Shown one piece after another: positions 1,251 to 24,315 of a stretch of 30,582 nucleotides of DNA. The notes under the pieces are model-generated. The model searched no databases, was not told where the DNA came from, and was given only the letters and a program-made list of their open reading frames with translations. The translations under genes were made by a program, and so were the position numbers. The number at the start of each line of letters is the position of its first letter. Within the stretch, counting starts at the first letter, position 1. Source of the stretch: a virus; the IMG/VR virus record IMGVR_UViG_3300005822_000040, positions 1-30,582 of that record; one strand, given 5' to 3'.

Positions 1251-4200
1251 ATGACAGAGAAGACGGTCTTCGATTTGCCAATCGGCGCTGGTCAGTACAC
1301 TGAGCAGTCAGAGCGTGGCGCTGTGGGTCGCTGGTACTCGATGGACAAGGTTCGCTTTCGCAAGGGGCTGGCTGAGAAGGTCGGTGGTTGGTCTCAGGTT
1401 GATCCACAATTTATTGGCACCTGTCGTCGCCTGAAGGATTGGTCATCTCTTGATTCAAAGCGATGGGTGGCAATTGCTACTGACATCAAGCTGTACTTGT
1501 GGCAAGACGGCACCCTGTACGACATCACTCCACTGAGGCGCACTGAGACGCTGGTAGCTCCGTTTGAGACGTTCACTGGTGAGTCACGTGTGCGCGTCAC
1601 TGATATAAACAGTGGAGCGCAGGAAGGCGACTACGTGACGTTCTCGAACACTATCGTAGGTGCGTCCAGTGGACTGACCTTCGATGGTGAGTACGTGATC
1701 GACACGATCATCGACCCTGACAACTATGAAATAACCAACGCAGGGACAGCGGCTACTGGTGGCTCTGGTGAGGGTGGTACAGCAGTTGTCGCTGAGTACC
1801 AGATAAGTGCAGGTGCGAACACGGCTGTGACAGCCACAGGCTACGGCACAGGCCCATACGGTCGAGAGGGCTACGGTAACGCTCGAACAGGCTCAACGCT
1901 CGTTCTGGGGATTCGTACGTGGTCTCTGGATACGTGGGGCGAGGACCTTCTCGCCTGTCCACGTGGTGGAGCTATGTACTGGTGGGATCGCTCCAAGGGC
2001 ACCGGCACACGAGCAGCACCGTTTGGTGGTGATGCGCCACCCACGAACGAGGCTATGATCGTCTCGCAGAGAGATCGTCACGTGATTGCTCTGGGAGCCT
2101 TCGATTACTTCAATGACAAGTTCGATCCTCTACTGATTCGCTGGTCATCGACTGAGGACCTGAATGACTGGGTGCCTACGAGCACCAACACATCAGGCGA
2201 CCTCAGACTCTACTCAGGGTCCAAAATCGTCACAGGTGTACGCTCACGCCTTGAGACGGTCGTATTCACTGATGTCAGCGTCCACACCATGCCGTTCTTC
2301 GGTGGCTTCGATGTGTTCGGATTGAATACGGTTGGTGAGAATGTCTCGATACTGGGTCCAAATGCCGCTGTGCCGATCGACGCTCGCGTGGTCTTCATGG
2401 CTGAGTCTGACTTCCACATCTACGATGGTATCGTCAAGGTGCTGCCGTGTGATGTGCGCAATCTTGTGTACGACTACATCAACGTCGATCAGCGTGACAA
2501 GGTGTACGGTGGGTTGAACCGTGAGTTCAACGAGGTCTGGTGGTTCTATCCATCGTACGACCCAGAGGCATGGGTACAGCAAGCATTTGATCTGAGGCTT
2601 CCACCGGGTTACGAGCTTGCCAACAACGATCCGATCATTGGTGACCCGTGCTGGGATGATGTTATTTATCTCGCGAAGTACGAGGGCACTAACGGGCAGA
2701 CCTCATACACTGAGTTGAAGCAGTCACTCACCCATACGTTCTACGGCAATGCCCAAATATCCACAGCACAGGCAAACTACGGCTCATCGGCAGTCGTGTT
2801 TGATGGTACATCTGACGGCATTCAGGTTAGCAGCCCAACCTCTACACAGCTGCTGAGTACGGACGAGGTGACGGTTGAGGGTTTTGTCTATCTCAACTCA
2901 TTACCAGTGGGAGCCGGTACTGACTGGCAGTGGGTCAATCAGGCGAATACGGATGTTAGTAACTTCGAGGTCAGGTTTGGCAATCTGAACGGAAGTCTCT
3001 ATCAGATTGAGGCTCGATTTGGATTCGGCAACACACCAGTTGGTGTTATAGCCCCTCCCTCAACAGGTGCATGGTATTACTTCTCAGCCCAGCGTCGTCT
3101 GAACGGTGCCAACTATTACGTCGATATTTTCTTTGGGCTGGCTTCTGGTGGGACCGCTAGTCGGGTGTCGCAAACCCTGAGCAACAACAACCCATCGAGC
3201 AACGTGGCAGGCGTGCCAATCACAATTGGTGCTTGGGATAACGCAAGCACTCAGGTATTCACACAGGTGCTCGACGGCTATGTAGATGATGTTCGTGTAA
3301 CCAAGTGTGCGAGGTTTGGCAACGTCTCGTCAGTCACCATCCCATCTGACTACGTAACGGTTGGTGGCTCACCATCCTCGATCGGTTATTCCTACGGGTT
3401 CAACTCGGCTGGCTACACTGAGGTTGCTGCTGTAGCTGATAACAACTACGAGCATGATTACTTACTAACCAACGACGAGCCGATCCTGACACCCACTGAG
3501 AGTGAGTACGCAGTCGAGCTGGATGTGAATCCTCTTATTGGCGCTGGTGTTGGCAGAGCAGGCATCTGTTTCCTCAGAACTGATCTGAATGGTCAGGGAG
3601 AGACGGACGCTGACGATGCTCAGCAGCTGATGTTCGAGCTGAACTATGATGACAACCGGGTGGAGGTCTGGAAGAAGACAGCAGCCGGTGTAGCGGTGCC
3701 TACCAACCAAGGCTCCAACACGGTGGACTTCACGACGCTGACAGGCTCTGCCATGGCGCTTGGCACGAAGTACGTCCTGACCGCTCAGTTCAATACACCT
3801 ACACTGACGCTATACGTGGATGGCGTGCAGGCGTTCCAGTTTGCACTGGACGCAACCGAGCTTACTCAGTTTGCTTCAGGAACTTTTGGGCTGCATCAAG
3901 CACCCGGTACTGTAAACGATCTTTATCGCTTTTATAATATTGCGGCTGGTCCTATTGGTGTGCTTACTGCGACTGATTTTGACATCAGTCCGATTGAGGT
4001 AAACCGATATGTGATGTTCAATTATGAAGAGGGTTCATGGGCAACCGGCAAGATGGCGCGTACAGCATGGGCTGACCGCTCACCATTGTTTGAGAAGCCG
4101 TACGCGACTGGTGCTGACGGCTATATTTACGAGCACGAAACAGGCACTGATGCCAACGGTGTCGGCATGGAAAGCCATATTGAGTCGTTCGATATGGAAA

Positions 4201-4478
4201 TACCAAACGCTGGTGAAGAGCTAATGCACGTTGACCAACTCATCCCTGACTTCCTGACGCTCGAAGGTAGCGTTGATGTGGAACTCACCGGGAGGAAGTA
4301 CCCAGCTGCTGACAGAATAACCAAAGGTCCGTACACGGTTGATGCGACGACGCGAAAGGTATCAACCAGAATACGTGCTCGTCAGGTTGCAATCAGGGTG
4401 TCGTCCAACGATACAGGCGACAAGTGGCGCATGGGAGTCTGGAGAGGAAGGGCAGGTCCACACGGTAGACGAGGATGA
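1251..4478 (+). CDS. P22 gp10-like tail/DNA-stabilization protein with LamG insertion
   Basis: This is a 1075-residue virion protein. The N-terminus, with RWYSMDKVRFRKGLAEKVGG, is typical of a widespread podovirus tail hub family annotated as packaged-DNA stabilization or tail accessory protein. The conserved EVWWFYPS motif is at residues 428-435 and the conserved continuation NRYVMFNYEEGSW starts at residue 918, followed by TAWADRSPLFEKP and a PDF strand near the end. In ordinary members these two motifs are only a few residues apart. Here about 480 residues intervene. They contain one clear LamG/concanavalin-like domain (about 467-700, ending in the usual YVDDVRVTK strand) and a second lectin-like segment (about 705-915). 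Members of the family sit at the head-tail junction and keep the packaged DNA in. The start has only a weak ribosome binding site and probably relies on coupling with the gene upstream. Confidence 0.75.
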   Translation: MTEKTVFDLPIGAGQYTEQSERGAVGRWYSMDKVRFRKGLAEKVGGWSQVDPQFIGTCRRLKDWSSLDSKRWVAIATDIKLYLWQDGTLYDITPLRRTETLVAPFETFTGESRVRVTDINSGAQEGDYVTFSNTIVGASSGLTFDGEYVIDTIIDPDNYEITNAGTAATGGSGEGGTAVVAEYQISAGANTAVTATGYGTGPYGREGYGNARTGSTLVLGIRTWSLDTWGEDLLACPRGGAMYWWDRSKGTGTRAAPFGGDAPPTNEAMIVSQRDRHVIALGAFDYFNDKFDPLLIRWSSTEDLNDWVPTSTNTSGDLRLYSGSKIVTGVRSRLETVVFTDVSVHTMPFFGGFDVFGLNTVGENVSILGPNAAVPIDARVVFMAESDFHIYDGIVKVLPCDVRNLVYDYINVDQRDKVYGGLNREFNEVWWFYPSYDPEAWVQQAFDLRLPPGYELANNDPIIGDPCWDDVIYLAKYEGTNGQTSYTELKQSLTHTFYGNAQISTAQANYGSSAVVFDGTSDGIQVSSPTSTQLLSTDEVTVEGFVYLNSLPVGAGTDWQWVNQANTDVSNFEVRFGNLNGSLYQIEARFGFGNTPVGVIAPPSTGAWYYFSAQRRLNGANYYVDIFFGLASGGTASRVSQTLSNNNPSSNVAGVPITIGAWDNASTQVFTQVLDGYVDDVRVTKCARFGNVSSVTIPSDYVTVGGSPSSIGYSYGFNSAGYTEVAAVADNNYEHDYLLTNDEPILTPTESEYAVELDVNPLIGAGVGRAGICFLRTDLNGQGETDADDAQQLMFELNYDDNRVEVWKKTAAGVAVPTNQGSNTVDFTTLTGSAMALGTKYVLTAQFNTPTLTLYVDGVQAFQFALDATELTQFASGTFGLHQAPGTVNDLYRFYNIAAGPIGVLTATDFDISPIEVNRYVMFNYEEGSWATGKMARTAWADRSPLFEKPYATGADGYIYEHETGTDANGVGMESHIESFDMEIPNAGEELMHVDQLIPDFLTLEGSVDVELTGRKYPAADRITKGPYTVDATTRKVSTRIRARQVAIRVSSNDTGDKWRMGVWRGRAGPHGRRG
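2556..4001 (+). other. LamG-like double domain inserted in the tail hub gene
   Basis: This segment encodes about residues 436-917 of the tail hub protein. It separates two motifs that are normally adjacent in the family (EVWWFYPS and NRYVMFNYEEGSW). The first part has the LamG pattern, including an AVVFDGTSDGIQV strand and a closing DDVRVTK strand. The second part has an LTLYVDGVQAFQF strand pair. Base composition near the right boundary (about 3900-3970) is visibly richer in A and T than the flanks. LamG folds usually bind carbohydrate, so a surface-glycan binding role is inferred. Confidence 0.65.
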
Positions 4479-7400: not shown

Positions 7401-8359
7401 TTACCAACACGACCGACTGGAATGTCACCGGACTCGCAGGCTTTAATGTCGCCAACTACAGCTTCGATGTGGACCAGACTGTCGGCGCTGGTCAGGACAA
7501 CTTCGTCCTTACGTATGACGACGTATCTGGGCTGATCTCACTGGAGGCGGCAGGTGGTGGCGGCATCGGCGGCTCGATCACTGACAACCAAGTCGCAGTG
7601 GGCGCGACCACAGCTGATGACATTGAAGGTTCAGCCAACCTCACTTGGGATGGCACCGATCTCGATGTAACTGGTGGTATAACTGTGTCCGGGGATGCTA
7701 TCTTCAGTCAGCTTGCCAGTGGCAGTACAGCGACGATGGTGCTTACAAACAACCAGCCTCGCCTTGATATCATTGACGACAACGCAGCAGCAAATACTGG
7801 TATATGGTCGTTCGCAAATGTGGCTGGCAACTTTAGGCTGACACCCTTCAGTGATGCGTACTCAGCAGGTAATAACGCAATCCAGATAACCCGGTCTGGT
7901 AACAATGCGAACATCGGCTCCTTGCAGGCGAACGCAAGGTGGGAGGTCGTCAACAACACTGACTTCTGGGTCAGAGACGGGGCAGAGCTTGTAATTCTCG
8001 ATTCTTCTGATGCCGACAGTGCTACGTTCAGTCATGATGGGACGGATTTTAACACTGCCTTTACCAACACGACTGATTGGAACATCACCAGCCTTACGTC
8101 TATTCAGGCTGGTACTGTTGACGCTGACTTTGATGTGGTGACTGCCACTAACGTATCGACTGATGGATACCTTCAGCTCAGGACCGCCACAGATACTGAG
8201 CTTAACGCCATCGCGAATGCAATCAACACCGACGCAGGTAAGATACAAGGAGCTGTAGTTTACAATACGACGACCGACAACCCGGTCTATGCAACAGGCA
8301 ATACAGACGGCGCGGTCTGGGTAGACGGTGCTGGCACAACGGTGAATACACCAGTGTAA
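4475..8359 (+). CDS. Tail fibre protein with LamG-like domain and repeats
   Basis: This is a 1294-residue protein starting in the ATGA overlap with the tail hub gene. The N-terminal 100 residues contain YAPLNHTHVVADITDF, a typical tail-fibre segment, and probably attach to the tail. Residues about 223-450 form a LamG/concanavalin-like domain ending in MDNVRITKGVARYTG. The rest is a beta-rich shaft with TLNVDG repeats (about residues 490 and 700) and three copies of DSAxFSHDGxDFNTxFxNTTDWN at residues 792, 961 and 1181. The end (YNTTTDNPVYATGNTDGAVW) looks like the C-terminal tip found in other podovirus fibres. No chaperone-type intramolecular peptidase is obvious. The segment at about 7070-7310 is AT-richer than its surroundings, suggesting module exchange. 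Host receptor binding is the expected role. Confidence 0.85.
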   Translation: MTRQRVALPSFREEGPIKPYDMRQLVAALEYRLQSLEDVGSVIPSTTVDGDLDNLYAPLNHTHVVADITDFDANVPSSIFDLDDVDGSPAIGETLIWDGNDFVPGTSGGSHTLGSHSDVYIPTPNDGDALTYVNSTGRWESLPQAGAGANTLLDLDDTDIATQNQYDLLFNADGENWHTTATDLQWNPVDDYLQLALGHSINWRNASEVSVELLVLEDAGLQADPDIGSVVMLLTGETAVDGATSITSDIGNHTFTSTGAGTAEVSTNQAYFGTRSLRTHYPSGVNFGIWTQTGTSADFDFAGGDFTIEFDFYSEVQSGTQYPLVRGGITGGSNLSWYVTVGVGANIDRIDFAYSTNGTGYTLAGTATPGFTVGAWYRVAICRNGADLRYYVEGTQVGTTKNVGTSVFFGGSGSLEMINNSGISIWYMDNVRITKGVARYTGASYTLDTGPYDGSSGFFSGFVVGDPVYPTQIDGLTAKITSASTDIDGTLNVDGAAVLQDTLKIKGITEADSFVRLGADITTATPPTTETPTSQLQFWDIDYTDQIGAVGYFAGNIFGLRNEMWNGPAQFEYRDSAGTLKDYLQAYPNANTNIKAVGQVDLYVNDGALGLTAKNGGVDIYVNNNLKAEFGTQGLDIHSATNADNAVNIVRFSWLNGTDRGFVGYSATDDLYVLNQVTNGSVIITPNGTGVVNVTGAVDLDSTLNVDGISTLNNDLAITTTLDDATGDEVALSLDYTTNKATSGADTGFQMTMTDTLSPGASLFADYRLGAVTLFDWGIDGTYRIYDATGADSAAFSHDGTDFNTSFVNTTDWNLNNITNVDIHDGGALRLFHTDNTSSYTMSRNAATVTFESSVTSDNLEFLGHQQIRFNKNTAGNTQFFIGEDSTIYGSNSTAYLELWGEQSSTKYALRMQVNSDTAVFASIGAGAIDQVLFGTAIWANNNIEVHDGSSLVIYNSTDNDSADFSHDGIDFNTVFTNTTDWNVTGLAGFNVANYSFDVDQTVGAGQDNFVLTYDDVSGLISLEAAGGGGIGGSITDNQVAVGATTADDIEGSANLTWDGTDLDVTGGITVSGDAIFSQLASGSTATMVLTNNQPRLDIIDDNAAANTGIWSFANVAGNFRLTPFSDAYSAGNNAIQITRSGNNANIGSLQANARWEVVNNTDFWVRDGAELVILDSSDADSATFSHDGTDFNTAFTNTTDWNITSLTSIQAGTVDADFDVVTATNVSTDGYLQLRTATDTELNAIANAINTDAGKIQGAVVYNTTTDNPVYATGNTDGAVWVDGAGTTVNTPV
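6848..6916 (+). repeat. Tail fibre repeat, copy 1
   Basis: Encodes residues 792-814 of the fibre: DSAAFSHDGTDFNT followed by SFVNTTDWN. The repeat is clear at protein level, and the central part AGTCATGATGG..CGGATTTTAA is shared with copy 3 at DNA level. Confidence 0.85.
7355..7423 (+). repeat. Tail fibre repeat, copy 2
   Basis: Encodes residues 961-983 of the fibre: DSADFSHDGIDFNT followed by VFTNTTDWN. It lies 169 residues after copy 1 and is preceded by an AT-richer stretch. Confidence 0.85.
8015..8083 (+). repeat. Tail fibre repeat, copy 3
   Basis: Encodes residues 1181-1203 of the fibre: DSATFSHDGTDFNT followed by AFTNTTDWN. It lies 220 residues after copy 2 and close to the C-terminal tip domain. 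Confidence 0.85.
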
Positions 8360-8368: not shown

Positions 8369-8488
8369 ATGTTTTGGTTAGGATTGGTGGCAGGGGCGCT
8401 CATTGTGGCGCTCATCCCACCTGAGTACGAGGACCGGCTTCGAGTCGGAATTATCAATCAGTGGCAAAAAGTTACTAAGAAGGGGTAA
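8369..8488 (+). CDS. Small single-span membrane protein (39 aa)
   Basis: A short gene with a nearly ideal AAGGAGG ribosome binding site just upstream. The product starts MFWLGLVAGALIVALIPP, one hydrophobic segment of about 15 residues closed by a double proline. It continues with a charged tail (EYEDRLR) and ends with KKG. It fills exactly the gap between the fibre stop and the acetyltransferase start, one base before the latter. The role is unknown. Small membrane peptides at this place in podovirus genomes could help virion assembly or DNA entry, or act as an extra lysis factor. None of these can be decided from the sequence. Confidence 0.65.
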   Translation: MFWLGLVAGALIVALIPPEYEDRLRVGIINQWQKVTKKG

Positions 8489-8489
8489 A

Positions 8490-8996
8490 ATGACTACGAT
8501 CAAGATCAGACCGGCTAAGCCCTTGGACACGTCGAATCTGGTACGGCTGCTCACAGCCGCACACGACGAAGCAGGCGCTTACCCACCAGTCGATCAGAGC
8601 TTAGGCTTGAACTGGATCACACAGACCCTCACGAACGGGTACGTTATCGTTGCAGATGTGTCTGGCAGACTGGTGGGAACATTGGCTCTCACTAACTATC
8701 AATTTCCATGGTCACCCAAGTGGTACATGTACTTGGAGTGGTTATACGTGCAGAAGAAGTTCCGCAAGGGTGGAGCTTTCGAGGCGCTGATCAAGGCTTG
8801 TCATGCCTACGCTGATCAACACGATGCGCCCATTCTTGCAGGTGTTTCCTCGGCTGACCGAGATGTATTCTTGAAGGACAAGGTGTTCCAGCACCACGGC
8901 TACAAGTACATCGGTGGAGATTTCATTCGTCCAAGTAGGAGTGAAGTCAGTGGGCAGCAAGAAAAAGAAAACGACTCAGACATACAAGCCGCCTGA
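8490..8996 (+). CDS. GNAT-family N-acetyltransferase
   Basis: This is a 168-residue protein, normal GNAT length. It opens with the beta-1 strand ITTK-like pattern TIKIRPAKPLD and has VIVADVSGRLVGTLAL in the middle (beta-2/beta-3). The core strand YLEWLYVQKKFRKGGAFEALI (residues about 83-103) corresponds to the acetyl-CoA binding motif A. FQHHGYKYIGGDFIR is the usual closing motif. I chose ATG 8490 rather than an upstream in-frame ATG at 8403, because 8490 follows the 39-residue gene with an AAGGGG about 4 bases upstream. GNATs of this type are found among virion genes of many phages. The target may be a virion protein or a host protein, and the substrate is not predictable. Its 3' end overlaps the next gene by 47 bases. 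Confidence 0.85.
   Translation: MTTIKIRPAKPLDTSNLVRLLTAAHDEAGAYPPVDQSLGLNWITQTLTNGYVIVADVSGRLVGTLALTNYQFPWSPKWYMYLEWLYVQKKFRKGGAFEALIKACHAYADQHDAPILAGVSSADRDVFLKDKVFQHHGYKYIGGDFIRPSRSEVSGQQEKENDSDIQAA
8937..8941 (+). promoter_or_regulatory. Ribosome binding site that selects GTG 8950
   Basis: AGGAG with 8 bases to GTG 8950, inside the end of the acetyltransferase gene. The in-frame ATG at 8914 has no comparable site, so the GTG is the better start. Confidence 0.65.
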
Positions 8997-9897
8997 GTGG
9001 GTTGAAGGTGGTGCCAAGGATGCGATGACTATTGGTCGTCGTATCGGCAACCAGCAGTACGAGGCATATACAGGCGAGCGCGTAGCTGGTCTGTCGCAGA
9101 ACGAGCAGATGGGCATGGACCTTGCTCGTGAGACAGGCGTTGGCGATCCGTACTATCAGGAAGGCGCGGCGCTGGCGAGACGTGGAACTGAGCAGTTCCG
9201 CGATGCTGACATGTCTGAGTACATGAATCCGTACATTAAGGGCGCACTGGACCCAGCAGCTCGTGAGATACGCGAGGAAGGCGCGAGAGGCGCTGCTGAG
9301 CTGGATTCAAGAGCTGCATCTATGGATGCCTTTGGTGGTAGTAGAGCGGCTCTCATGCGCTCTGAGAACCGTGAGAAGACCCTACAGGGTGTCAAGGACC
9401 TCTACGGTGAGGGCTACGCCAAAGCGTACGAGAGTGCCGTCAACATCTGGGGTGATGAGCGAGCCAGAGATATGCAGGGCGCTGGGCGCTTCATGCAGAT
9501 CGGTGATGCTATCACCAATGCGAGAAAGACAGACATCCATACCCTGATGACAACTGGTGCCACCGACCGTGGTATCCAGCAGGCAATGCGCGACTTTGAC
9601 TACAACCAGTTCATCGAGAACCGAGACTGGGACTTCCGCAACCTTGGTGGTCTGATCGCAGCACTGGAAGGCACAAGGGGTTCCTACTCAACCAAGCATA
9701 CATCGACCGAAGAGACTAGCGGTGGCGAGGTGGCTCAGGCTCTGGGTATTGCCGCAACACTGGTTGGTGCTTTCTTTAATCCAGCAGGAGCGGCAGCAGG
9801 CGCTGTCGGTCAGGTTGGCACCAACACTAATTGGTCACAGCCAGACGCATCCGGCTTGCAGACCATCCTTTCAACGCCAGCCCCAATTGGAGGCTAA
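8950..9897 (+). CDS. Probable internal virion/ejection protein
   Basis: This is 315 residues from GTG 8950, chosen for the AGGAG 8 bases upstream; an in-frame ATG at 8914 would add 12 residues. The start is basic (GSKKKK), followed by YKPPEWVEGG and then ERVAGLSQNEQMGMDLARE near residue 40. That is a pattern common to a family of podovirus structural proteins encoded between the tail genes and the large ejection protein. The middle is alpha-helical and Ala/Arg rich. The end has a hydrophobic Ala/Gly segment (QALGIAATLVGAFFNPAGAA), as seen in proteins that insert into membranes during DNA entry. It is co-oriented with and immediately upstream of a second protein of similar kind and the giant virion protein. 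Function is inferred mainly from order and composition. Confidence 0.6.
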   Translation: MGSKKKKTTQTYKPPEWVEGGAKDAMTIGRRIGNQQYEAYTGERVAGLSQNEQMGMDLARETGVGDPYYQEGAALARRGTEQFRDADMSEYMNPYIKGALDPAAREIREEGARGAAELDSRAASMDAFGGSRAALMRSENREKTLQGVKDLYGEGYAKAYESAVNIWGDERARDMQGAGRFMQIGDAITNARKTDIHTLMTTGATDRGIQQAMRDFDYNQFIENRDWDFRNLGGLIAALEGTRGSYSTKHTSTEETSGGEVAQALGIAATLVGAFFNPAGAAAGAVGQVGTNTNWSQPDASGLQTILSTPAPIGG

Positions 9898-9900
9898 ATC

Positions 9901-11214
9901 ATGGGTATTCGCGACTCAATCTCTCAGGCTGGAATGGCTGCAAAAGCGTACGCAGACGAACAACAGAACACCAGACCTGCCACCCCCGGCAGTGCCGTAC
10001 CGGAAGTTGCCAGCACCCCTGCGGCAGCACCAGCAAACGATACAACAGGGGCTGGTGGGTCTGGTCCTGACTCTCCACCCCAATCTGGTGGTCCCGATTG
10101 GGTTAGTCCCGGTGGTATGCCAACCGATAAGACCGACCAAATGGGCATTGGTCAGGTGGAAGAGCTTGAGAAGTCGGCTGCGAATGTGGCGAACGGCAAA
10201 GCACCAGATGGTCCTGCACTAAGTGACCCTGATGTATCAACCGCTAAAATTGCTGATCAGAAGGTCAAGCTCAATGAGAGCCTTGACGCTTGGGGTGCCA
10301 ACCCAGAGAAGGCTTTGAATCAGCTGAAGAACGACAACCTGAAGCGCCTCAAGCAGCTGGAGAAAGAGGGCGCGATAGACAAGAAGACGTACACCAATCT
10401 CAGGGATCGCTGGAAGAACATCTTCAATGTCATTCCCAAGGAAGACTTCGGCATGGTGCTGATGGACTTCGGGATGCGAGCGATGATGGCTGGCGAAACC
10501 ATGGGCAGCGCAGCAGCTCTCGGTGCAGCAGGCTCAGGCGCACTTCAGGGTGTGCAGGCTCGTAAGGAGCAGGACTACCAGCGTGGTGTTGAGCAGGAGA
10601 AGTTGGCTGGCGATATGGCTCGTGCTGATCTGAGCGCTTCGACCGCAGCTCTTACTGCGAGCAAGAAGGGTTCTGATACCAAGGACACTCAGGAAGGTGT
10701 CATGGAATGGAGAGACGGCAAGTGGGAATACATGGAAAAGCTGAACCCGGAAACAGGAAAAATGGAGAGGGTGATGCCGTCCGCTCTTGCTGGAAGACCA
10801 CCAACTGACAAGTGGAAGATCGACCGACTTGTTGCTGGAGGTATGTCACCAGAAAAAGCTGACAGGATTATCCTGCTCGGACAAGACCCTCAGCGAGCAA
10901 AAGAGATTGCGGTATCGTCATGGAACGCATTTGAACGTGACGCTGACGCGACAATCACAATTGGTGGAAAAACGTACACCAAGCGTGATGTCAAGAAGGC
11001 TGATATTGCAGACCTTAAAAGAGCGTACATGGATGAGACGCTTTCCATCCTTGGTATTCCACCAGAGGATCGAGGTCCAGCACAAGGTGGTGGCGCTTTG
11101 AACCAAGGTGGTGAGCCTGATGCCTATGAGTGGCTGAAGGATAAGCCATCACATTACACACCAGAGCAGTGGGACGAGTACGTCGCAAGTCGAAAAGAAG
11201 CGGTAGGGTGGTAA
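9901..11214 (+). CDS. Probable internal virion/ejection protein
   Basis: This is a 437-residue protein with a strong ribosome binding site (GGAGG at 9889-9893, 7 bases before ATG). Residues about 20-75 are a low-complexity Pro/Ala/Gly/Ser linker. Residues about 115-180 are helical and charged. FGMRAMMAGETMGSAAALGA (about residues 190-210) is a hydrophobic Gly/Ala segment of the type seen in ejection proteins, followed by a coiled-coil-like stretch (QARKEQDYQRGVEQEKL). The second half is soluble and includes a GGMSPEKADRIILLGQ helix pair. The gene is followed 3 bases later by the giant protein gene, so the two are probably made together and may act together in the virion core. No enzymatic motif is seen. 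Confidence 0.55.
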   Translation: MGIRDSISQAGMAAKAYADEQQNTRPATPGSAVPEVASTPAAAPANDTTGAGGSGPDSPPQSGGPDWVSPGGMPTDKTDQMGIGQVEELEKSAANVANGKAPDGPALSDPDVSTAKIADQKVKLNESLDAWGANPEKALNQLKNDNLKRLKQLEKEGAIDKKTYTNLRDRWKNIFNVIPKEDFGMVLMDFGMRAMMAGETMGSAAALGAAGSGALQGVQARKEQDYQRGVEQEKLAGDMARADLSASTAALTASKKGSDTKDTQEGVMEWRDGKWEYMEKLNPETGKMERVMPSALAGRPPTDKWKIDRLVAGGMSPEKADRIILLGQDPQRAKEIAVSSWNAFERDADATITIGGKTYTKRDVKKADIADLKRAYMDETLSILGIPPEDRGPAQGGGALNQGGEPDAYEWLKDKPSHYTPEQWDEYVASRKEAVGW

Positions 11215-11217
11215 CCC

Positions 11218-14200
11218 ATGGCTGAAGAGCTTAGCTTTGAAGAAGAGATGGCGAGGGCACGAGAGAGCCTGAGTCGCAGAGAAGAAGAAGTCACCCAGCA
11301 GATCGAGCCTGAAGAAGAGCCGCCTGCCGAGGTGCCTGCTCTTGGCGCTGGTGAGGTTCCAGCAATTGGCGAAACATCTCGTAGTGATCTCACTCCTGAG
11401 CGTCCACGGACGTTTGAAGAAGAGATGGCTCTTGCTCGCGGCGAAGAGCTTCCAGACACAGATCAAAACACAGGCTTCCTTGGAGACGTAGGCACCGACA
11501 TCAAGATCGGCGCTTCGATGATTGCCAAGGGTCCGATGATCCGTGCTGAAAAAGAGCGCGACTTCAGGGATCAAACTAAGAATAAGGTCGCTGAGCAGTT
11601 GACTGAACCAGACATCGCAGGCATCGAGAAGATCGCTGGCAAGAAGATCGACAAGATGGACTGGTTTGAACTCAATAATGCCGCTACCGATTTTTACGGC
11701 ACGACCGGCGAAGGGTTCCTCGGTAAGCGTTTCGTGTGGAACAACATGCTGCGCGAGATGATGGGCTTCCGTGAGGGAGACAAGGATCGCGACGGCTCAC
11801 CGGGGTTATCCAATCTCGTCACAGGTGAAGAGCCTAGAGAGGCTGGCGAGCCTACAGGTGCGCCTGCGTTCGAGGGTGCCTATGAGTTAATCAGCGGTAG
11901 CCTGAGAAGCAACAAGGCTAACGTGCTCACTGGCGCTGTTGGTGTCTTGAAGCTCGATGGTCAGGCGATGTACGAAGGTATCGCTCGACCAATCATGGAG
12001 AGCACTGGTGTAGATAGTAGGGAGAAAGCAGAAGCAGCTGCCAAGGCTCTCGATGAACTGTACCTCGAATACACAGACGAGATGCAGGAGCAGGAGCAGA
12101 AGACCTTCATCAACCCAGAGGCAACGAAGAACCCATTGACATGGTTCTCTGGTGACGACACCAAGAGCTGGAAGGGAATCCTGCACACCACCTTGCAGCA
12201 AGGTCCGATGCTTCTGTTGATGGCTGGTGCATCAAAGGGAGGCGGCATGGTTGGTGCAAGCCGCTACACCCGGAGCATGAGAACACCTCTTCAGACCATG
12301 GAAGAGGTTCAAAAGATTCAGAAGACTGGTGCCACGATCGGTGGCGCAGCAGCTGGTGGTATGGCAGAGATGTCTATGATTCGTGATGGTGTCTTCACTG
12401 AGGTGAATCGACGCATCGAGAACGAAACCAGTGATGAGATGTGGGCTAACAACGAGCACTACTCAAGACTCGTTGCTGGTGGTATGACACCCGAAGAAGC
12501 CAAGCAGATCGTTGGCTACTCATACGCCAACAGCGCAGGTGAGATGGCAATGGTTATCTCTGGCGCTTTGCTTGGTACACCCATGGGCGCGTTTTACGGT
12601 CAGACGGTTGGTCGCTCAGCTGGACGACAGCAAGCCAAGCAGTCGATCCTCGCGCAGATGGGTAGAGGTGCCCTGTACGAGACTGGTCAGGAGATGGCTC
12701 AGGAAGGCACTGAGCAGATCGCATCGAACCTTGCAGTCATGCGTATCAACCCAGAGGCGAAGGTCTTTGACGATGTGCTCGAAGCGATGGCGGCAGCAGC
12801 CTTTACCTCAGCACCATACGGTGCAATATCTGGTATCGGTAGTGACAAGGGCGCTGGTGTAGCGAAGGACTACGACAAGTTGGTTAATCTGTCGCAGCCG
12901 TGGATGAACGCAGCCAACGAGCGCTGGAAGTTCCAGAACAAGAAAGGACCGAACACCTCGTTCGCAAACGATGCCTCACCACAGGATCAACGTGATGCGA
13001 TGATCGAGCTTGAGCGCCTTCAGGAGAAGGAGGCTGAGGCATTCGACAAGGTTCGTACCGAAACGTACGAGCTGATGGAACGCAATGGTGCCGACAAAGA
13101 AAAGCTGCTTGAGCACAAAGCGCGAGCTGATGGATACCGTCTCGATCTGGCAATGATTGCGAAGCGGCGCAAGGCTCGCCAGATTGCCAAGAAGCAGGCA
13201 GCAGAAGAGAAGAGGGCGCTGGCAGAACGCGCAGCAGCCAAGGCACAGGTCGAGAGAGATGTCTTCACGATCGAGGACAACACTCGTCTGGTCGAAGGGA
13301 TGCAGGCTATCCAGCGTGGCGAGGAAGTTCATCCAGAGATGTACGACGAGTTGTCGAAGATGGGCTACGGCACGTTCGACCAGAGAGGCACAAAGTTCAT
13401 ACTCACCCAGCGTGGCGCACGTGGTCTCGAAGAGCTGGCGACTCAGGCTTCAGACCTCAAGGATAAACTGGAAGCTGGCTTCACTGGCGCTGACAGGCGT
13501 GTTGATAGCAACCTTCGTGATGCCTACCAGAACCTGACCGAACAGGAGTTCGAGGATCAGGTTATGCGTGACGATGACACGAGGCTCTGGAATAAGCGCA
13601 AGTGGAATCAGGATAAGGATAAATCTGTAACGATCAACGGTGTTGAGCAGAAGAAGTCTGTTGCCGTACTGGACGTTGACGCTCTCAAGTGGGTCAACGA
13701 CAACATGAGTCACAGCGCTGGCACGAAGTTGCTGCGCACGGTGGCTAAAGAGATCGAATCTCTTGGCAGCGGCGCTGAGTCTTACAGGTATGGTGGTGAT
13801 GAGTTTATCGTCACTCACCCAGACCCAGACAAGCTCCAGTCGATGGTCGAGCAGGCTATCGCACGTGTGAACGCTCTGCCGCGAATGGAAGAGGCTGGCA
13901 AGAGCATCAAGATACAGGTCTCTGTTGGCTACGGTCAGGACTTCGATACAGCTGATGTGGCTCTCAATCAGGAGAAGGATCGACGCATCGCATCAGGTGA
14001 GCGGGTTGACTCTCGTGTCGAGGGTGCGACCCCACCATCATTGCGTCTCACTGAGCCAGACAATAGTCCTCAGATGACCCTGTTCGCGATGAGTAAGGAC
14101 TATAAGAAGTTCGATGACGATCAGATTCACAAATCGGACAACAACACCGGAGACCCTGAGTACTGGGATGAGTACGTCAGTGCTGGTGATTTGTTCTACA

Positions 14201-17200
14201 ACTCGCAGGTGTTTGGCACCAGAAAGGTTTCAGAGCAGGAGATGGGGTGGATCGAGGGCACGATCGAGGACTACTTGCCATCAACCAATCAAGGCAATCC
14301 ACCAGTCACATTGATGCACGACTACACGTGGCTGTCTGAAATCTCACCAAACCAGTACGAAGAGATGCTGTCGATGCCGTTCGGTGCTCAGAACGTACGC
14401 GGCATCTTCTCAATGGATGACCCATCGCATGGTGTCTTTCTGTTCGCTGATGCAATCATTGCTGAGGTGAGACGCGGCTTGAAGTCGGGTAACAAGATCG
14501 GCACTTGGAATGGCATCAAGTACAAGATCAAAGAAGGTGACACCGTTGAGATAATCGACGGCAAGGGGAAGATTCGCAAGGCGAAGGTCACTGACTTTAC
14601 GATAAAGAAGCCGAAGTACAGCTACGGCACAACATCATTCTCTGGAGCTGAGAAGCGCCTGCAAAAAGAGGCGATCGACACTCGTCAGCGAATCAATAAA
14701 CTGATCCGCAAAGAAGAGTCTCTACTGAAGGCTCGCCTGAAGATGTCCGAGGTTAAGCGGGAGGATCGAGACCACCCAATCAATAAGCAGCTTGCGGAGA
14801 ACTTTGAGAATCAGGGTCAGCTTGAGCAAGAGTTGCGCATGTTCCAGTCGGCGCTGGCAAGAGAGCGTCAGGCACGGTGGAAACGTCCTACTGACGAGAA
14901 CGTGGATCGCGGCGCAAATAGTCTCACCGTCGAACTGGATGGTGACGTGCTTGTGTTCGACCCTGAGATGAATTCACTAATTAGGTCTACAGATACAGAG
15001 GCATCGGTAAATCAAAAATACAACATTGGTTATGATTGGTCGCTTCCTACCAATACTTTTCAGGCGACATTATCCAATGGTGACCATCGGTATTACCGTT
15101 TCTCGTCAGATGGTGACGGAAACTTAATGGTGATGGAGAAGGTTCAAAGAGCATACAAGCCAGCGGTGGATGTTTCCCACATGATTGGTCAGTCACCAAA
15201 AGCCATCATTCAAAAAGTAACTAATGACGATGGACTTGATTTTCATGGTCGTACTGGAGATGTGCTGGAAGAGGCTCTTGGTAAGGTGCCGAACTTTAGT
15301 CAGCGCTCTGAAGATGCAAAAGCAAAAGAGAGAAAGTCTTTTGCTAAGCAACTTAAAATTGATTCTGCACCATACGCTGAAGAGAGGGGTGATATATACC
15401 TCGGTCAGATTCGTCATGCGAAATCATCTAAGTGGTACGACAACTTCGGCAACGAAGAGGCATCCAAAGACGAAGAGATGACGCGAAAGCATGTTGAGAT
15501 GCTTGTCGCTGACACCGTGATGCACGAGACGGTTGGTCACTTTGGTATTCGCGGTATCACGAAGGACTACGAGTCTTACATCAAGCTGACTCATGCGATG
15601 GTCGATGCTTTCCCAGAGGTGGCTGAGGCACTCCGGTGGATGGGGTACACATACCGTACCGACATCAACAAGGGTGAGGACCTCGACCGTGCTAACAAAG
15701 CCCTGCTGGGCGAAGAGATCATGGCATGGAAAGCTGGTGAGCTACTGAGCAACCCAGAGCTGAAGGGTATGACTCTGCCACAGCAGAGCGCGATACGGCG
15801 CTTCATCACGTGGTTCAAAGAGCAGCTCATCCAGCTTGGCTGGGGTAAGGTTTTCCGCAAGTACAAAGCAGCTCAGATTCGTGCCGCTCGCAGGCGGCTG
15901 TACAACCCAACCAATGCACATGTGCGCGAGCAGGCTTTCATCGAGCTGTACGGCAAGGGTGATCAGGCTGGTTTAATCCATTCTGGTCAATCTGCTGAGC
16001 GAACTGGTGCATGGAAGAAGGGCAAGAAGACAAAGCGTGGTGTCGTCATCCGGGCAGCAGACAGCTTCCTTACCGACAACGACCTGCTGAATATCATTGC
16101 TCGCTCTCATGACGCTATCGTCAACGGGCACTCAAAGTGGACCTTCAAGGACTTCCATGGTCAGCCGCACAATTTGTACATGCGCGACATGGAGATATTC
16201 AGGAAGCCCATTTATGAGGTGATGGTCAACGGTGTTCGTGGTCGAACTGAAGAAGAGGTTCTGAGTGAAGAGGACTTGGCACCCGCACCTCCAGTGCCGA
16301 CTCTTGCCGAGGCATACAAGGAAGCCACTGGCGAGGATATGCCAGAGGGCTGGAAGCCGCTGACACCCGGTGACTTCAAAGACGCTGCCAAAGAGATGAT
16401 GGCAGAGAAGGGTGAGCTGTTTGATGAGTATCAGGCTGCACGAGAAGCCGCAGGAGGCAAGCTCGGTCCACCTGTGTTCCTGTATCAGAAGGAGACAGGT
16501 GGTGCGGCAGGCGATAACGTAGCCGGTAAGGTGCAGTCGATCATCAGTAAGGCGAAGAAGGAGAAGGTGCGCCGAGAGAATCTGGTTCGTGCGAAGAAGG
16601 CGAAGATCGAGGCAGGCGAGCGCATGTATGGTGAGTCCTTCAATCAGGACAGGATTCCGATCTTCCCAGAGGTAGCCACACTTCAGGGCTTTATCGAGGC
16701 AGCAAAGCAGGCGCTACCGAGCGCGAAGAACAAGGGCTTCATCTCCGAGATGGAAATGGAGGCAGCTGGCTTCATGGAGCAGCTGTGGCCTAGCAGGTTC
16801 AGAAGCATTGTAATTGACCTGTTTGGAGGCACTGATCCAGCAGACCTCAGCAGTCGCCTTGGCATATCAGAGAAGCGCATCAAAGAGCTACGGAACCCCG
16901 GTCAGCAGATGACCGAGGAAGAGGCTAATGCTGTATCGAAGTTAATGAAAGAGACCGACTCTCAGAACTCTATGTTTTATGAGTCGCAGGTTGATCCGAA
17001 GAACCTGATGCAGAATAACAACCTCATCCTTAGCGACTTTATTCCTGTTCTCGGTCAGTACGCTCTCAGTCAGCAGGACCCAGCGTTGACGACACTCAAT
17101 ATTTTGCTTGGCGAAAACCATGCCGCGTTTGAGGCTTACTTAAAAGCGGTGGCGAAAGAACTGTCAGATGATCCTGATGAAAGGTCTCAAGCATTGATGG

Positions 17201-23200: not shown

Positions 23201-24315
23201 TACGCTACCGCGACGATCCACGCTACGACGAACTGGAAGACTGGGACAAGGATGCGTACTTCCACTGGTGGATTGGTGATCTACACTTCCGCTTGCCGAA
23301 GGGCTTCGAGGTTGGTGCGATCTTCAACACCATTCCTGAGCGCATCTTCGAGTACTACTACAGCAGAGAGACGGATGCAGGTAAGCACCTGATGCGTCGT
23401 ATGGGTCACATGTTCTTGGAGACATTCAACATGAACCCGATACCGCAGATTGCCAAACCACCAATAGAAGCGGTTGCTAATTACGACTTCTTCCGTGGCA
23501 GGAGCGTCGAGTCGCCGTATGAAAAAGACCTGCTGCCAGAAGATCGTTACGCGAACTACACCAGCGAGACCATGCGTGAAATGGCTATGCTGTTCCCGCA
23601 GGGCTGGAGCACAAAGTGGTATGGCGAGATCAAGTCACCGAAGAAACTTGAGCACATGTGGGCTGGTTACACTGGCACGATGGGACGATACATGCTGAAC
23701 GCTGCCGACATTGGTATGCGCGTGCTGATGGACTACCCGGTGCAGCCAGACTGGGATGCTTCAGACCTGCCGGTGCTCAGTCGATTCTTCCGTGGTGATA
23801 GACCTCGGCGCACGCGCTACGAGGAAGAGTTCTACCGTGAGCTTCACGACACCGTGATGGTAATGAACTCCATGCGTAAGGCAGACAGGGCTGGTGAGGA
23901 TGGTCGCTACGATGAGCTTGAAGCGTTCTTCCCAGATGAGGTTGATCGGGCGAGAGAGCTTCAAGGTTACAGCAGGGAACTACAGAGGCTGAGAAAAGAA
24001 GCCAGAGAAGTTTACGCTGACCGGGACATAACCAAGGAAGAGAAGCGATCTGAGCTTGACGACATTCAGCGTGAAAAGAATGAGGTGATGAAGGAAGCCT
24101 ACGAGTCCAGACCGGGCGCTGCTCCAAAGGATGAAGAGGTCAACCTTGAGACGCTGATGGACACGTTCGACCCGACCTCACCGGACGGCAATCAGGAGAT
24201 GAAAGTTCAAGCACCAGAGACTACTCAACTATTTGCTGGAGTTACTGACATGTCTCCAGCGCAACTTCACCGGCTTGAGAAAGCCGACAACTACAGGCCA
24301 ACAGGTAATGAATGA
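11218..24315 (+). CDS. Giant polyvalent virion protein with GGDEF and metallopeptidase domains
   Basis: This is a single 4365-residue reading frame. Visible parts in order are as follows. A repeated FEEEMAxAR motif (residues 7-15 and 66-74). A hydrophobic Gly/Ala-rich region (about 325-480) like the membrane-active part of ejection proteins. A coiled-coil region (about 610-690). A GGDEF domain (about 780-930: metal site D819-V-D, N827, GGDEF at 859-863, K920). A metallopeptidase-like site HETVGH (1436-1441) with a possible third ligand in GEEIMA (E1499/E1500). An HTH-like stretch (about 1876-1905). A segment resembling the phage EIQSDW-type domain (2160-2197). A Tat-signal look-alike (3412-3428). 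A C-terminal region like LPD38 (about 3800-4060, with TVPFMGARMQG at 3954-3964). A final coiled coil (about 4240-4300). Proteins of this layout are known as polyvalent proteins and are thought to be packaged and injected. No N4-type RNA polymerase motifs are present. Segments near 14950-15420 are AT-richer, suggesting acquired modules. Confidence 0.8.
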   Translation: MAEELSFEEEMARARESLSRREEEVTQQIEPEEEPPAEVPALGAGEVPAIGETSRSDLTPERPRTFEEEMALARGEELPDTDQNTGFLGDVGTDIKIGASMIAKGPMIRAEKERDFRDQTKNKVAEQLTEPDIAGIEKIAGKKIDKMDWFELNNAATDFYGTTGEGFLGKRFVWNNMLREMMGFREGDKDRDGSPGLSNLVTGEEPREAGEPTGAPAFEGAYELISGSLRSNKANVLTGAVGVLKLDGQAMYEGIARPIMESTGVDSREKAEAAAKALDELYLEYTDEMQEQEQKTFINPEATKNPLTWFSGDDTKSWKGILHTTLQQGPMLLLMAGASKGGGMVGASRYTRSMRTPLQTMEEVQKIQKTGATIGGAAAGGMAEMSMIRDGVFTEVNRRIENETSDEMWANNEHYSRLVAGGMTPEEAKQIVGYSYANSAGEMAMVISGALLGTPMGAFYGQTVGRSAGRQQAKQSILAQMGRGALYETGQEMAQEGTEQIASNLAVMRINPEAKVFDDVLEAMAAAAFTSAPYGAISGIGSDKGAGVAKDYDKLVNLSQPWMNAANERWKFQNKKGPNTSFANDASPQDQRDAMIELERLQEKEAEAFDKVRTETYELMERNGADKEKLLEHKARADGYRLDLAMIAKRRKARQIAKKQAAEEKRALAERAAAKAQVERDVFTIEDNTRLVEGMQAIQRGEEVHPEMYDELSKMGYGTFDQRGTKFILTQRGARGLEELATQASDLKDKLEAGFTGADRRVDSNLRDAYQNLTEQEFEDQVMRDDDTRLWNKRKWNQDKDKSVTINGVEQKKSVAVLDVDALKWVNDNMSHSAGTKLLRTVAKEIESLGSGAESYRYGGDEFIVTHPDPDKLQSMVEQAIARVNALPRMEEAGKSIKIQVSVGYGQDFDTADVALNQEKDRRIASGERVDSRVEGATPPSLRLTEPDNSPQMTLFAMSKDYKKFDDDQIHKSDNNTGDPEYWDEYVSAGDLFYNSQVFGTRKVSEQEMGWIEGTIEDYLPSTNQGNPPVTLMHDYTWLSEISPNQYEEMLSMPFGAQNVRGIFSMDDPSHGVFLFADAIIAEVRRGLKSGNKIGTWNGIKYKIKEGDTVEIIDGKGKIRKAKVTDFTIKKPKYSYGTTSFSGAEKRLQKEAIDTRQRINKLIRKEESLLKARLKMSEVKREDRDHPINKQLAENFENQGQLEQELRMFQSALARERQARWKRPTDENVDRGANSLTVELDGDVLVFDPEMNSLIRSTDTEASVNQKYNIGYDWSLPTNTFQATLSNGDHRYYRFSSDGDGNLMVMEKVQRAYKPAVDVSHMIGQSPKAIIQKVTNDDGLDFHGRTGDVLEEALGKVPNFSQRSEDAKAKERKSFAKQLKIDSAPYAEERGDIYLGQIRHAKSSKWYDNFGNEEASKDEEMTRKHVEMLVADTVMHETVGHFGIRGITKDYESYIKLTHAMVDAFPEVAEALRWMGYTYRTDINKGEDLDRANKALLGEEIMAWKAGELLSNPELKGMTLPQQSAIRRFITWFKEQLIQLGWGKVFRKYKAAQIRAARRRLYNPTNAHVREQAFIELYGKGDQAGLIHSGQSAERTGAWKKGKKTKRGVVIRAADSFLTDNDLLNIIARSHDAIVNGHSKWTFKDFHGQPHNLYMRDMEIFRKPIYEVMVNGVRGRTEEEVLSEEDLAPAPPVPTLAEAYKEATGEDMPEGWKPLTPGDFKDAAKEMMAEKGELFDEYQAAREAAGGKLGPPVFLYQKETGGAAGDNVAGKVQSIISKAKKEKVRRENLVRAKKAKIEAGERMYGESFNQDRIPIFPEVATLQGFIEAAKQALPSAKNKGFISEMEMEAAGFMEQLWPSRFRSIVIDLFGGTDPADLSSRLGISEKRIKELRNPGQQMTEEEANAVSKLMKETDSQNSMFYESQVDPKNLMQNNNLILSDFIPVLGQYALSQQDPALTTLNILLGENHAAFEAYLKAVAKELSDDPDERSQALMEKQEILSSPIDVTKIQIPKDWVLDRIKDPVYDVSVSAPIRVPTPWKTHYERLYGEKPPAGIGNDFEALPAEQYQAIREEQRRDEKEGPNIGYDEQLGRWITTKADHQTQNYYSNLMPLWTVPGSYKGAVFWQRPEGNVDSYHFEFAHYRERSESAEAMGEMSGIWGHVRYGESIDADPNAPIAPNPDKQGRAMLFAESQADYIQRAAKRYSSSAEEHRLTQQYLEDGRALKQMFGGYMQAINTRLRTAVEEDFQNIVDRVDDSEMESFYGENQFALLSDHDKEVLKQIVAANHFYNQVEELPAINEFNEAIDSIRDSFEWKRLKRAARDQQPQQQTDDLGDSGDINKTKLKTTFVGDARMFEWADHRAMDLIFTSIRDLSTQYHQHIIEQRTIGGPGTAAWDKLVANGGKIMNLSPVNRVDTAIAAHVLANAKSNGNNQPGHRLPFMSEIAIDRLALFIADFEQRGERESRAEAESIFESISNQQSYVLNLDLDALASQFNESEINARSLQLMLNDFRGTPFGTSYGLLTKHVLGNTSLSAYGTKDQLDTFDKVIIDELKEYMKVRFAERSMEDLNNKIYDKKQTLNNRWDYGRMLLEHWLGDFQVEYAKLRVSDDPNAPFEHVNDELANGMSIERAREMIAEHDIESFDKYVKRKWEELWNNSTTAEIESYEQDGGDSDTPTPNWYERYAESYNDRPPGVFVMQVPVQWETVGDVENEIVETVEWVVKRPSTDRNRWTIFIDGEEKYDSVSNTHIINKITMYIRDYYDHQNITAPANGFPSLRPEIKAINDELKSMENRKAEGELQSGAEFAQAFSESVDFDVQRGEFGDMEESFLRIIESNKKSGWQERVLIEKNEQWRTAQILYGFSEAVRNGYARMHLPWGSQSGSRGGYGRSKYESTSYVHSTNEIEYELSTQVIRGERRDILIVKPDNTEDSMWIDVTSDNLIPMNPDRTISDNPDQYEGYFSGEITKQLGRDVAETIARKMSSSNKAAKRNLLMVSKTSWNPDTTGQQELMDSYFIHDTQGNIIEIAASREEANARREELTKEDQTEAPTNLKGTVTSGELGGPIQIPRTYYAGSPAYRADYGSGYQHTFARPSYEGGRANYDLVMPARINGHLKRFGLKIEEGYAKVEDQHKVDSMYGGGDRISYMVPQSLVDQYPNIRIDQVGGENFGFIINSDRGVVMPTIFSTKEAAEVEMDGWYRANSADDSGRVKVYQVTFNDDLRKFHERPQNPYLGIKYQINSNEKLKEALSKIGSNEPSLLERFLDWRKTWKASVNIGMFDRFYGILHALKMTGSSTEGYILTRMSTGLDSIMKGVFEYGHPVWRDGVVVNEGRGLLKILEPVADQVELWAGYMAGKRAKGLMLEGYNKLNAHDKSILDREAGNYEGEDFNERLFNLLVDVTDVGATDKPAMMTRRDILKGMAALGVAANVPMPGNTSLEKAAIELVLPMLKKSNFKKFRNAAGRAQRAARTATTAEAMDLDRIVDPTKAFRKPEQARYTWVKKLMESDGVTREQAEEAIDSAIKKGFEDQMAADIAKAAKEKSDKKTRGTSSPDVNRVVNNMIAQGRESLFTPTDIKELIALGDDFPIFDQVSEDYASFNKKMLDFAEESGVINSETRPLWEDADYIPFYRIADDRLVGPLAKTAGVANQKSPIDRLKGGQNNLGDLVHNIFMNATNLMDSSVKNNAALEIVNQLEPTGMMVKEKFDPDAQVPMEDIKKILKRNNIELDDLEAEVQKGLQTMFAVQAPKGDGVVSVLRDGKKEFYRVDDPLLYRSMAAINMERLPDWVAPARFAKRFQTTMITIDPGFMAANFIRDSMSAFVLSRDNFIPMVDGVRGFKEAITEGDTYQAMVASGAAFESGIINQGDPKATHKYIKRAMRDAGFQRTLLNTPRKLFNAWKKLGSATENANRIAVYQAAIKAGKTQQQALYEAKDIMDFSMSGDYKAIQYLIQTVPFMGARMQGLHRLGRGAKENPVGFLIKGTMIGVAGMGLWLRYRDDPRYDELEDWDKDAYFHWWIGDLHFRLPKGFEVGAIFNTIPERIFEYYYSRETDAGKHLMRRMGHMFLETFNMNPIPQIAKPPIEAVANYDFFRGRSVESPYEKDLLPEDRYANYTSETMREMAMLFPQGWSTKWYGEIKSPKKLEHMWAGYTGTMGRYMLNAADIGMRVLMDYPVQPDWDASDLPVLSRFFRGDRPRRTRYEEEFYRELHDTVMVMNSMRKADRAGEDGRYDELEAFFPDEVDRARELQGYSRELQRLRKEAREVYADRDITKEEKRSELDDIQREKNEVMKEAYESRPGAAPKDEEVNLETLMDTFDPTSPDGNQEMKVQAPETTQLFAGVTDMSPAQLHRLEKADNYRPTGNE
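13555..14007 (+). other. GGDEF nucleotide-cyclase-like domain inside the giant protein
   Basis: Residues about 780-930 of the giant protein align end to end with GGDEF domains. DDTRLWNKRKW corresponds to the DxLTGLxNRR start. AVLDVDALKWVND carries the metal Asp (D819) and the guanine-contact Asn (N827). YRYGGDEF has an intact signature (G859-F863). SVGYG is the strand after it, and ADVALNQEK has the phosphate-contacting Lys (K920). The Asp that follows GH-x-x-G in diguanylate cyclases is Thr (T836), and no RxxD inhibitory site precedes the signature. Activity is likely, but product specificity is uncertain. Confidence 0.85.

Follow-up and report, generated by a model that had tools for sequence, protein, structure and literature searches.

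A GGDEF domain of a phage-specific branch, with Thr at the guanine-reading position, in a giant and probably ejected phage protein

The window, as we call the whole stretch of 30,582 nucleotides analyzed here (virus record IMGVR_UViG_3300005822_000040), encodes a giant protein in a late-gene neighborhood, preceded by virion and DNA ejection genes (Table 1). Two curated Pfam domains were detected in this protein, GGDEF (residues 784–905, E=8.9e-14 with the whole protein) and LPD38, and the protein is co-linear with that of the nearest relative, L003, with 59% identity across 4026 aligned residues. The zincin-like HETVGH motif recurs in nine relatives (L003, L024, L026, L037, L049, L055, L060, L077, and L094). 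Great length, a multi-domain make-up that includes an LPD domain, and a gene adjoining those for virion and ejection proteins (phrog_3287 and phrog_4287, both upstream) are the features of a polyvalent protein. A gene at positions 4475 to 8359 encodes 1,294 aa with a concanavalin-like domain (Laminin_G_3); its product probably belongs to the tail or serves in adhesion. The GNAT gene sits directly 5' of the ejection-protein gene and overlaps it; the same family and arrangement are found in L026.

Table 1. Genes, domains, and residues of the window discussed in the text.
Feature	Position	Strand	Basis or remark
Virion structural protein	1251..4478	+	phrog_3287, E=2.5e-63
GNAT acetyltransferase gene, ahead of ejection gene	8403..8996	+	phrog_1249, E=2.2e-15
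DNA ejection protein homolog	8914..9897	+	phrog_4287, E=8.9e-16
Gene between ejection gene and giant gene, no assigned function	9901..11214	+	
Giant polyvalent protein, 4,365 aa	11218..24315	+	single open ORF
GGDEF domain, residues 784–930	13567..14007	+	Pfam PF00990, AF2 model, superposition
K793, equivalent of cross-dimer base-stacking Arg (IsPadC Arg537)	13594..13596	+	
D819, metal-binding Asp	13672..13674	+	67/67 of phage branch
N827, guanine sugar-edge Asn	13696..13698	+	67/67 of phage branch
T836, replaces guanine-reading Asp	13723..13725	+	branch: Asp 56, Asn 8, Thr 3
GGDEF motif, residues 859–863 (metal D861, general base E862)	13792..13806	+	
K920, phosphate-binding Lys, PleD K442 equivalent	13975..13977	+	67/67 of phage branch
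Phage-specific C-terminal extension, after last GGDEF helix	13975..14037	+	branch motif, diverged in window
HETVGH zincin-like metallopeptidase motif, residues 1436–1441	15523..15540	+	motif only
LPD38 domain, residues 4000–4187	23215..23778	+	Pfam PF18857, E=4.4e-41

Similar genes precede the giant gene in several relatives. The phrog_4287 ejection family is found upstream of it in L003, L026, and L045, while the upstream gene matches a virion-structural family in L027, L061, and L094 and, weakly, a DNA-ejection family in L050. The interval between the ejection and giant genes is also paralleled, by a gene of 387–513 aa at the equivalent place in L003, L026, L045, and L061. In its C-terminal part, the giant protein matches a protein of 3,190 residues from Aeromonas phage phiARM81mr whose annotation reads putative virion structural protein, and LPD38 has been reported from phage-type polyvalent proteins alone (PMC5512222). 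Given these two matches and the upstream ejection and virion genes, the giant protein is likely packaged and ejected with the phage DNA. Gene order and family thus support a probable virion association of this polyvalent protein, as proposed in an earlier note on this DNA.

The domain itself is a genuine GGDEF domain with intact active-site residues. Its match to Pfam PF00990 (E=1.5e-15 for the sub-region) is accompanied by a match to NCBIfam TIGR00254 that exceeds the cut-off, and SadC, DosC, and PleD were matched in a phmmer search against the PDB. The AF2 model, for which 59 branch sequences served as input, is confident (pLDDT 92.3, pTM 0.84) and superposes on 3ign (Z 17.4, rmsd 2.5 over 144 residues), on PleD with GTP-alpha-S (2v0n, Z 16.4), and on the Geobacter Hypr domain (6d9m, Z 16.1). 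Sequence profile and fold therefore both place the domain in the diguanylate cyclase family, and a chance match to GGDEF was rejected on the basis of the Pfam and PDB matches, the model, and its superpositions. The domain also ranks with the better conserved stretches of the giant protein, with a dN to the nearest relative of 0.16 versus 0.35 for the whole protein (dN only, without dN/dS, as synonymous sites are saturated).

All of the residue positions assigned in that note (D819, N827, T836, GGDEF at 859–863, and K920) were recovered in the translated ORF. The gapless alignment to PleD that it described holds for the block from D819 to T836 and breaks down beyond it, where the spacings to GGDEF and K920 differ. 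GGDEF follows the metal Asp by 40 residues in the window versus 41 in PleD, and the phosphate Lys follows it by 101 versus 115; in the superposition, 142 model residues span 157 residues of the PleD chain. The equivalences of K920 with PleD K442 and of K793 with IsPadC Arg537 come from superposition ranges (5llx for K793) and assume gap-free alignment ends. The metal Asp, guanine Asn, GG[D/E]EF motif, and phosphate Lys are thus all in place, and the inhibitory RxxD site is indeed absent, its two positions being G850 and A853. The guanine-reading Asp (PleD D344) is replaced by T836, so that we do not file the domain as a GTP-specific diguanylate cyclase. Counted against a cyclase reading is the alignment of Arg446, the second phosphate ligand of PleD, with I924; the branch to which the domain belongs has an Arg at 923 instead.

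To define this branch, a profile-guided scan of viral contigs was used, in which 120 relatives were found and 80 kept. Score-based grouping yielded 67 deduplicated phage-type sequences, which we compared with 71 bacterial homologs from a genome scan; the latter were drawn by the pattern DxD[SG]LK[WF][VI]N and so do not represent GGDEF domains at random. No further relatives were gained by searching with the L005 domain alone, and several nominal phage matches on unannotated fecal contigs proved to be ordinary bacterial-type GGDEF domains and were excluded. The number of relatives in a single scan, together with a publication from 2017, overturns the idea that GGDEF domains in giant phage proteins are rare. 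GGDEF in polyvalent proteins was already known; the defined phage branch and its breadth appear to be new, as do its relaxed selectivity positions and pyrophosphatase neighbor.

In a tree with position 836 masked, one branch parts the phage sequences from 12 sampled bacterial sequences (SH-aLRT 97). All 67 phage-branch sequences have the metal Asp, the guanine Asn, Gly835, the general-base Glu, and the phosphate Lys, and 66 have D861. At 63 of 81 loci (near-copies included) the ORF with the domain is 1,000 aa or longer, and the proteins that carry the domain are mostly 1,000–6,000 aa long; YuA and Bordetella phages have it in stand-alone proteins, and it was also found on a few bacterial genome contigs that are probably prophages. 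Matching PHROGs families exist and are all listed as function unknown.

Stand-alone members include L009:4010-4477 and L012:1534-1989, from Pseudomonas YuA-like and Bordetella phages, and the neighbors of such genes are an anti-restriction gene in YuA and DNA-binding or exonuclease genes. On a contig labeled as a Microbacteriaceae MAG (L113:6235-6705), the GGDEF protein closely resembles that of Bordetella phage MW2, and the contig may therefore be a phage binned by mistake. A sub-group (L041, L052, and L074) carries the GGDEF domain late in the protein, at about residue 2000, with LPD38 and RadC-like domains, and L041 additionally has an ADP-ribosyltransferase domain.

The C-terminal motif K..[RK]..G.R..RG..P is present in 52 of the phage-branch sequences and in none of the 71 bacterial homologs, while the bacterial ADxxMYxxK signature shows the reverse distribution (1/67 versus 56/71). 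The phage sequences also often have HxSGDEF instead of RxGGDEF. Such features could indicate a GGDEF-fold nucleotidyltransferase with some other output (a linear dinucleotide, NTP hydrolysis, or a different linkage) shaped by the C-terminal extension, for which the GGDEF-like OptS of Panoptes, which makes 2',3'-c-di-AMP (PMC12657218), offers a parallel. We consider this quite improbable, as the catalytic residues, among them the general-base Glu and phosphate Lys, are those of a diguanylate cyclase.

The positions that govern base choice are less constant. Asp at 836 is the ordinary state of the branch (56 of 67 sequences), which makes the Thr of the window a derived state, and the remainder have Asn (8) or Thr (3); among the bacterial homologs, 70 have Asp and one Asn (Fisher P=0.002, relatedness ignored). 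Position 836 lies outside both scan patterns, so that these counts are not biased by the search. Parsimony on the 836-masked tree requires 11 changes, roughly one per non-Asp lineage, and Thr836 is common to the window and its nearest relative (L003/L004) with a separate origin in L063. Position 793, equivalent to the cross-dimer base-stacking Arg that is the other published selectivity position (PMC6456294), is Arg in 45/67 phage sequences versus 70/71 bacterial ones. Thus, both positions are relaxed in the phage branch relative to the bacterial homologs; an association of non-Asp836 with non-Arg793 is only suggestive (Fisher P=0.03, relatedness ignored).

These residues can be compared with those of the Hypr enzymes described in the portion of PMC6456294 used here, where Ser/Thr variants at the guanine-reading position carry GGDEF and not GGEEF, as does the window, and where a Hypr domain is recognized by Ser (or Thr) at that position together with GGDE[F/Y]. 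T836 with GGDEF conforms to this pattern, although the enzymes assayed there had Ser only. At the stacking position, Hypr enzymes have Tyr, Ser, Ala, or Gln for Arg; K793 of the window is not Arg, yet it is a charged relative of it. An altered base choice in the window domain is plausible. An Asn and a Ser have been implicated in guanine/adenine recognition in the GGDEF fold (PMC12657218), and the retention of N827 argues for mixed rather than adenine-only nucleotide use, in which guanine may still be preferred. With Asp the ordinary state of the branch and Asn827 kept, a product made using ATP is a possibility and not a prediction, and we hypothesize only that it might be cGAMP or c-di-AMP.

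A simpler reading is that of an ordinary diguanylate cyclase, which makes only c-di-GMP and tolerates Thr836 because Asn827, invariant across the branch, still reads guanine. The predominance of Asp at 836 would fit, as would mutagenesis of canonical enzymes, in which four of five D-to-S mutants were inactive and the fifth, GSU3350, remained a pure diguanylate cyclase (PMC6456294). This reading has difficulty with the replacement of Asp836 about ten times in the branch versus once among the 71 bacterial homologs, and with the relaxation of position 793, and we regard it as possible but rather unlikely.

Cyclases release PPi. Thirteen relatives have a phage-type inorganic pyrophosphatase domain (PF18823) in the same chain as GGDEF, and in 6 of these it lies at most 35 residues away, on either side; in random placement, none of 20,000 trials reached the observed closeness, with the caveat that the proteins are related. 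The two domains are directly adjacent in L037, L044, L045, L048, L053, L058, and others. Such adjacency fits what an active, PPi-releasing enzyme would favor, and the shared chain in relatives supports such activity of the GGDEF domain. In the part of Iyer et al. (2017; PMC5512222) considered here, PPi clearance by the InPase domain is discussed for replication or transcription, and the GGDEF-pyrophosphatase link was not found.

On the other hand, no pyrophosphatase domain was detected in the giant protein of the window, which we count against activity. Degenerate GGDEF domains that serve as receptors are well known, and a catalytically dead domain, retained for nucleotide sensing or for its structural role within the ejected protein, would agree with this precedent and with the missing pyrophosphatase partner and guanine-reading Asp. 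Active-site residues that are invariant in 67 divergent sequences, combined with the lack of an RxxD product site, are however the reverse of the usual receptor pattern, and this explanation seems to us very unlikely.

We find the evidence evenly balanced for the whole of the reading that we prefer, namely a catalytically competent dinucleotide cyclase of the phage branch, in a probably ejected polyvalent protein, with its base choice loosened; its core, an active, feedback-free cyclase in such a protein, is in our view the best reading, and the interpretation given in the earlier note is partly supported. The activity, dimerization, delivery, product, and purpose of the window domain we infer as follows. 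GGDEF cyclase activity needs a dimer. Two copies of the domain would meet, each with one purine NTP, and E862 of one copy would activate the 3'-OH of the partner-held nucleotide, whereupon PPi leaves. A 3',3'-cyclic dinucleotide would then form without feedback, the primary inhibitory site being absent. T836 and K793, in place of the guanine-reading Asp and the stacking Arg, would probably loosen the choice of base and give a mixture of c-di-GMP and cGAMP, and the product would perturb host cyclic-nucleotide signaling in the first minutes of infection. In the papers retrieved, we found no activity assay of a phage GGDEF domain or of a branch member.

It is known that phages degrade or sequester the cyclic-nucleotide signals of host defense. 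More speculatively, many phages might inject a dinucleotide cyclase, often fused to a pyrophosphatase, and several lineages, that of the window among them, might independently have loosened its base choice, flooding the cell at entry with adenine-containing cyclic dinucleotides (e.g., cGAMP) that confuse or feed nucleotide-based host defenses such as CBASS or Panoptes; we attach a low probability to this scenario. If a phage enzyme this widespread produced such signals on entry, the strategy would be the opposite of signal destruction. Together, the conserved branch, the C-terminal motif, and the pyrophosphatase that often lies alongside define a set of proteins for assay, and from the repeated loss of the guanine-reading Asp one can predict which members should make products other than c-di-GMP.

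Among known systems, the polyvalent proteins of Iyer et al. (2017; PMC5512222) resemble that of the window: they are giant phage proteins of many domains, encoded near virion genes, in which GGDEF is accompanied by LPD38, zincin-like, InPase, ART, or SNF2 domains, and a nucleotide-signal role was already proposed for them. In the part of that paper drawn on here, GGDEF is called not very widespread, in contrast to the breadth of the branch, and no branch-specific signature or change at the guanine position was found. The Hypr GGDEF enzyme GacA of Geobacter (PMC6456294) shares the non-Asp guanine-reading position with GGDEF, the Asn contact, and the replaced stacking Arg. The window domain differs from it in having a Thr rather than a Ser, a Lys at the stacking position rather than Tyr/Ser/Ala/Gln, a phage-specific C-terminus, no Rec domain, and an activity that is only predicted. 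With the canonical cyclases PleD, WspR, SadC, and DosC it has in common the fold, metal Asp, Asn, general-base Glu, and phosphate Lys, but it departs from them in Thr836 and lacks RxxD, the ADxxMYxxK/GRN C-terminal signature, and a sensory domain. Finally, the stand-alone GGDEF-like proteins of Pseudomonas phage YuA and other Mesyanzhinovviridae belong to the same branch and have the same C-terminal motif, whereas they are only 157–185 aa long, are encoded among DNA-metabolism genes, and have Asp at 836.
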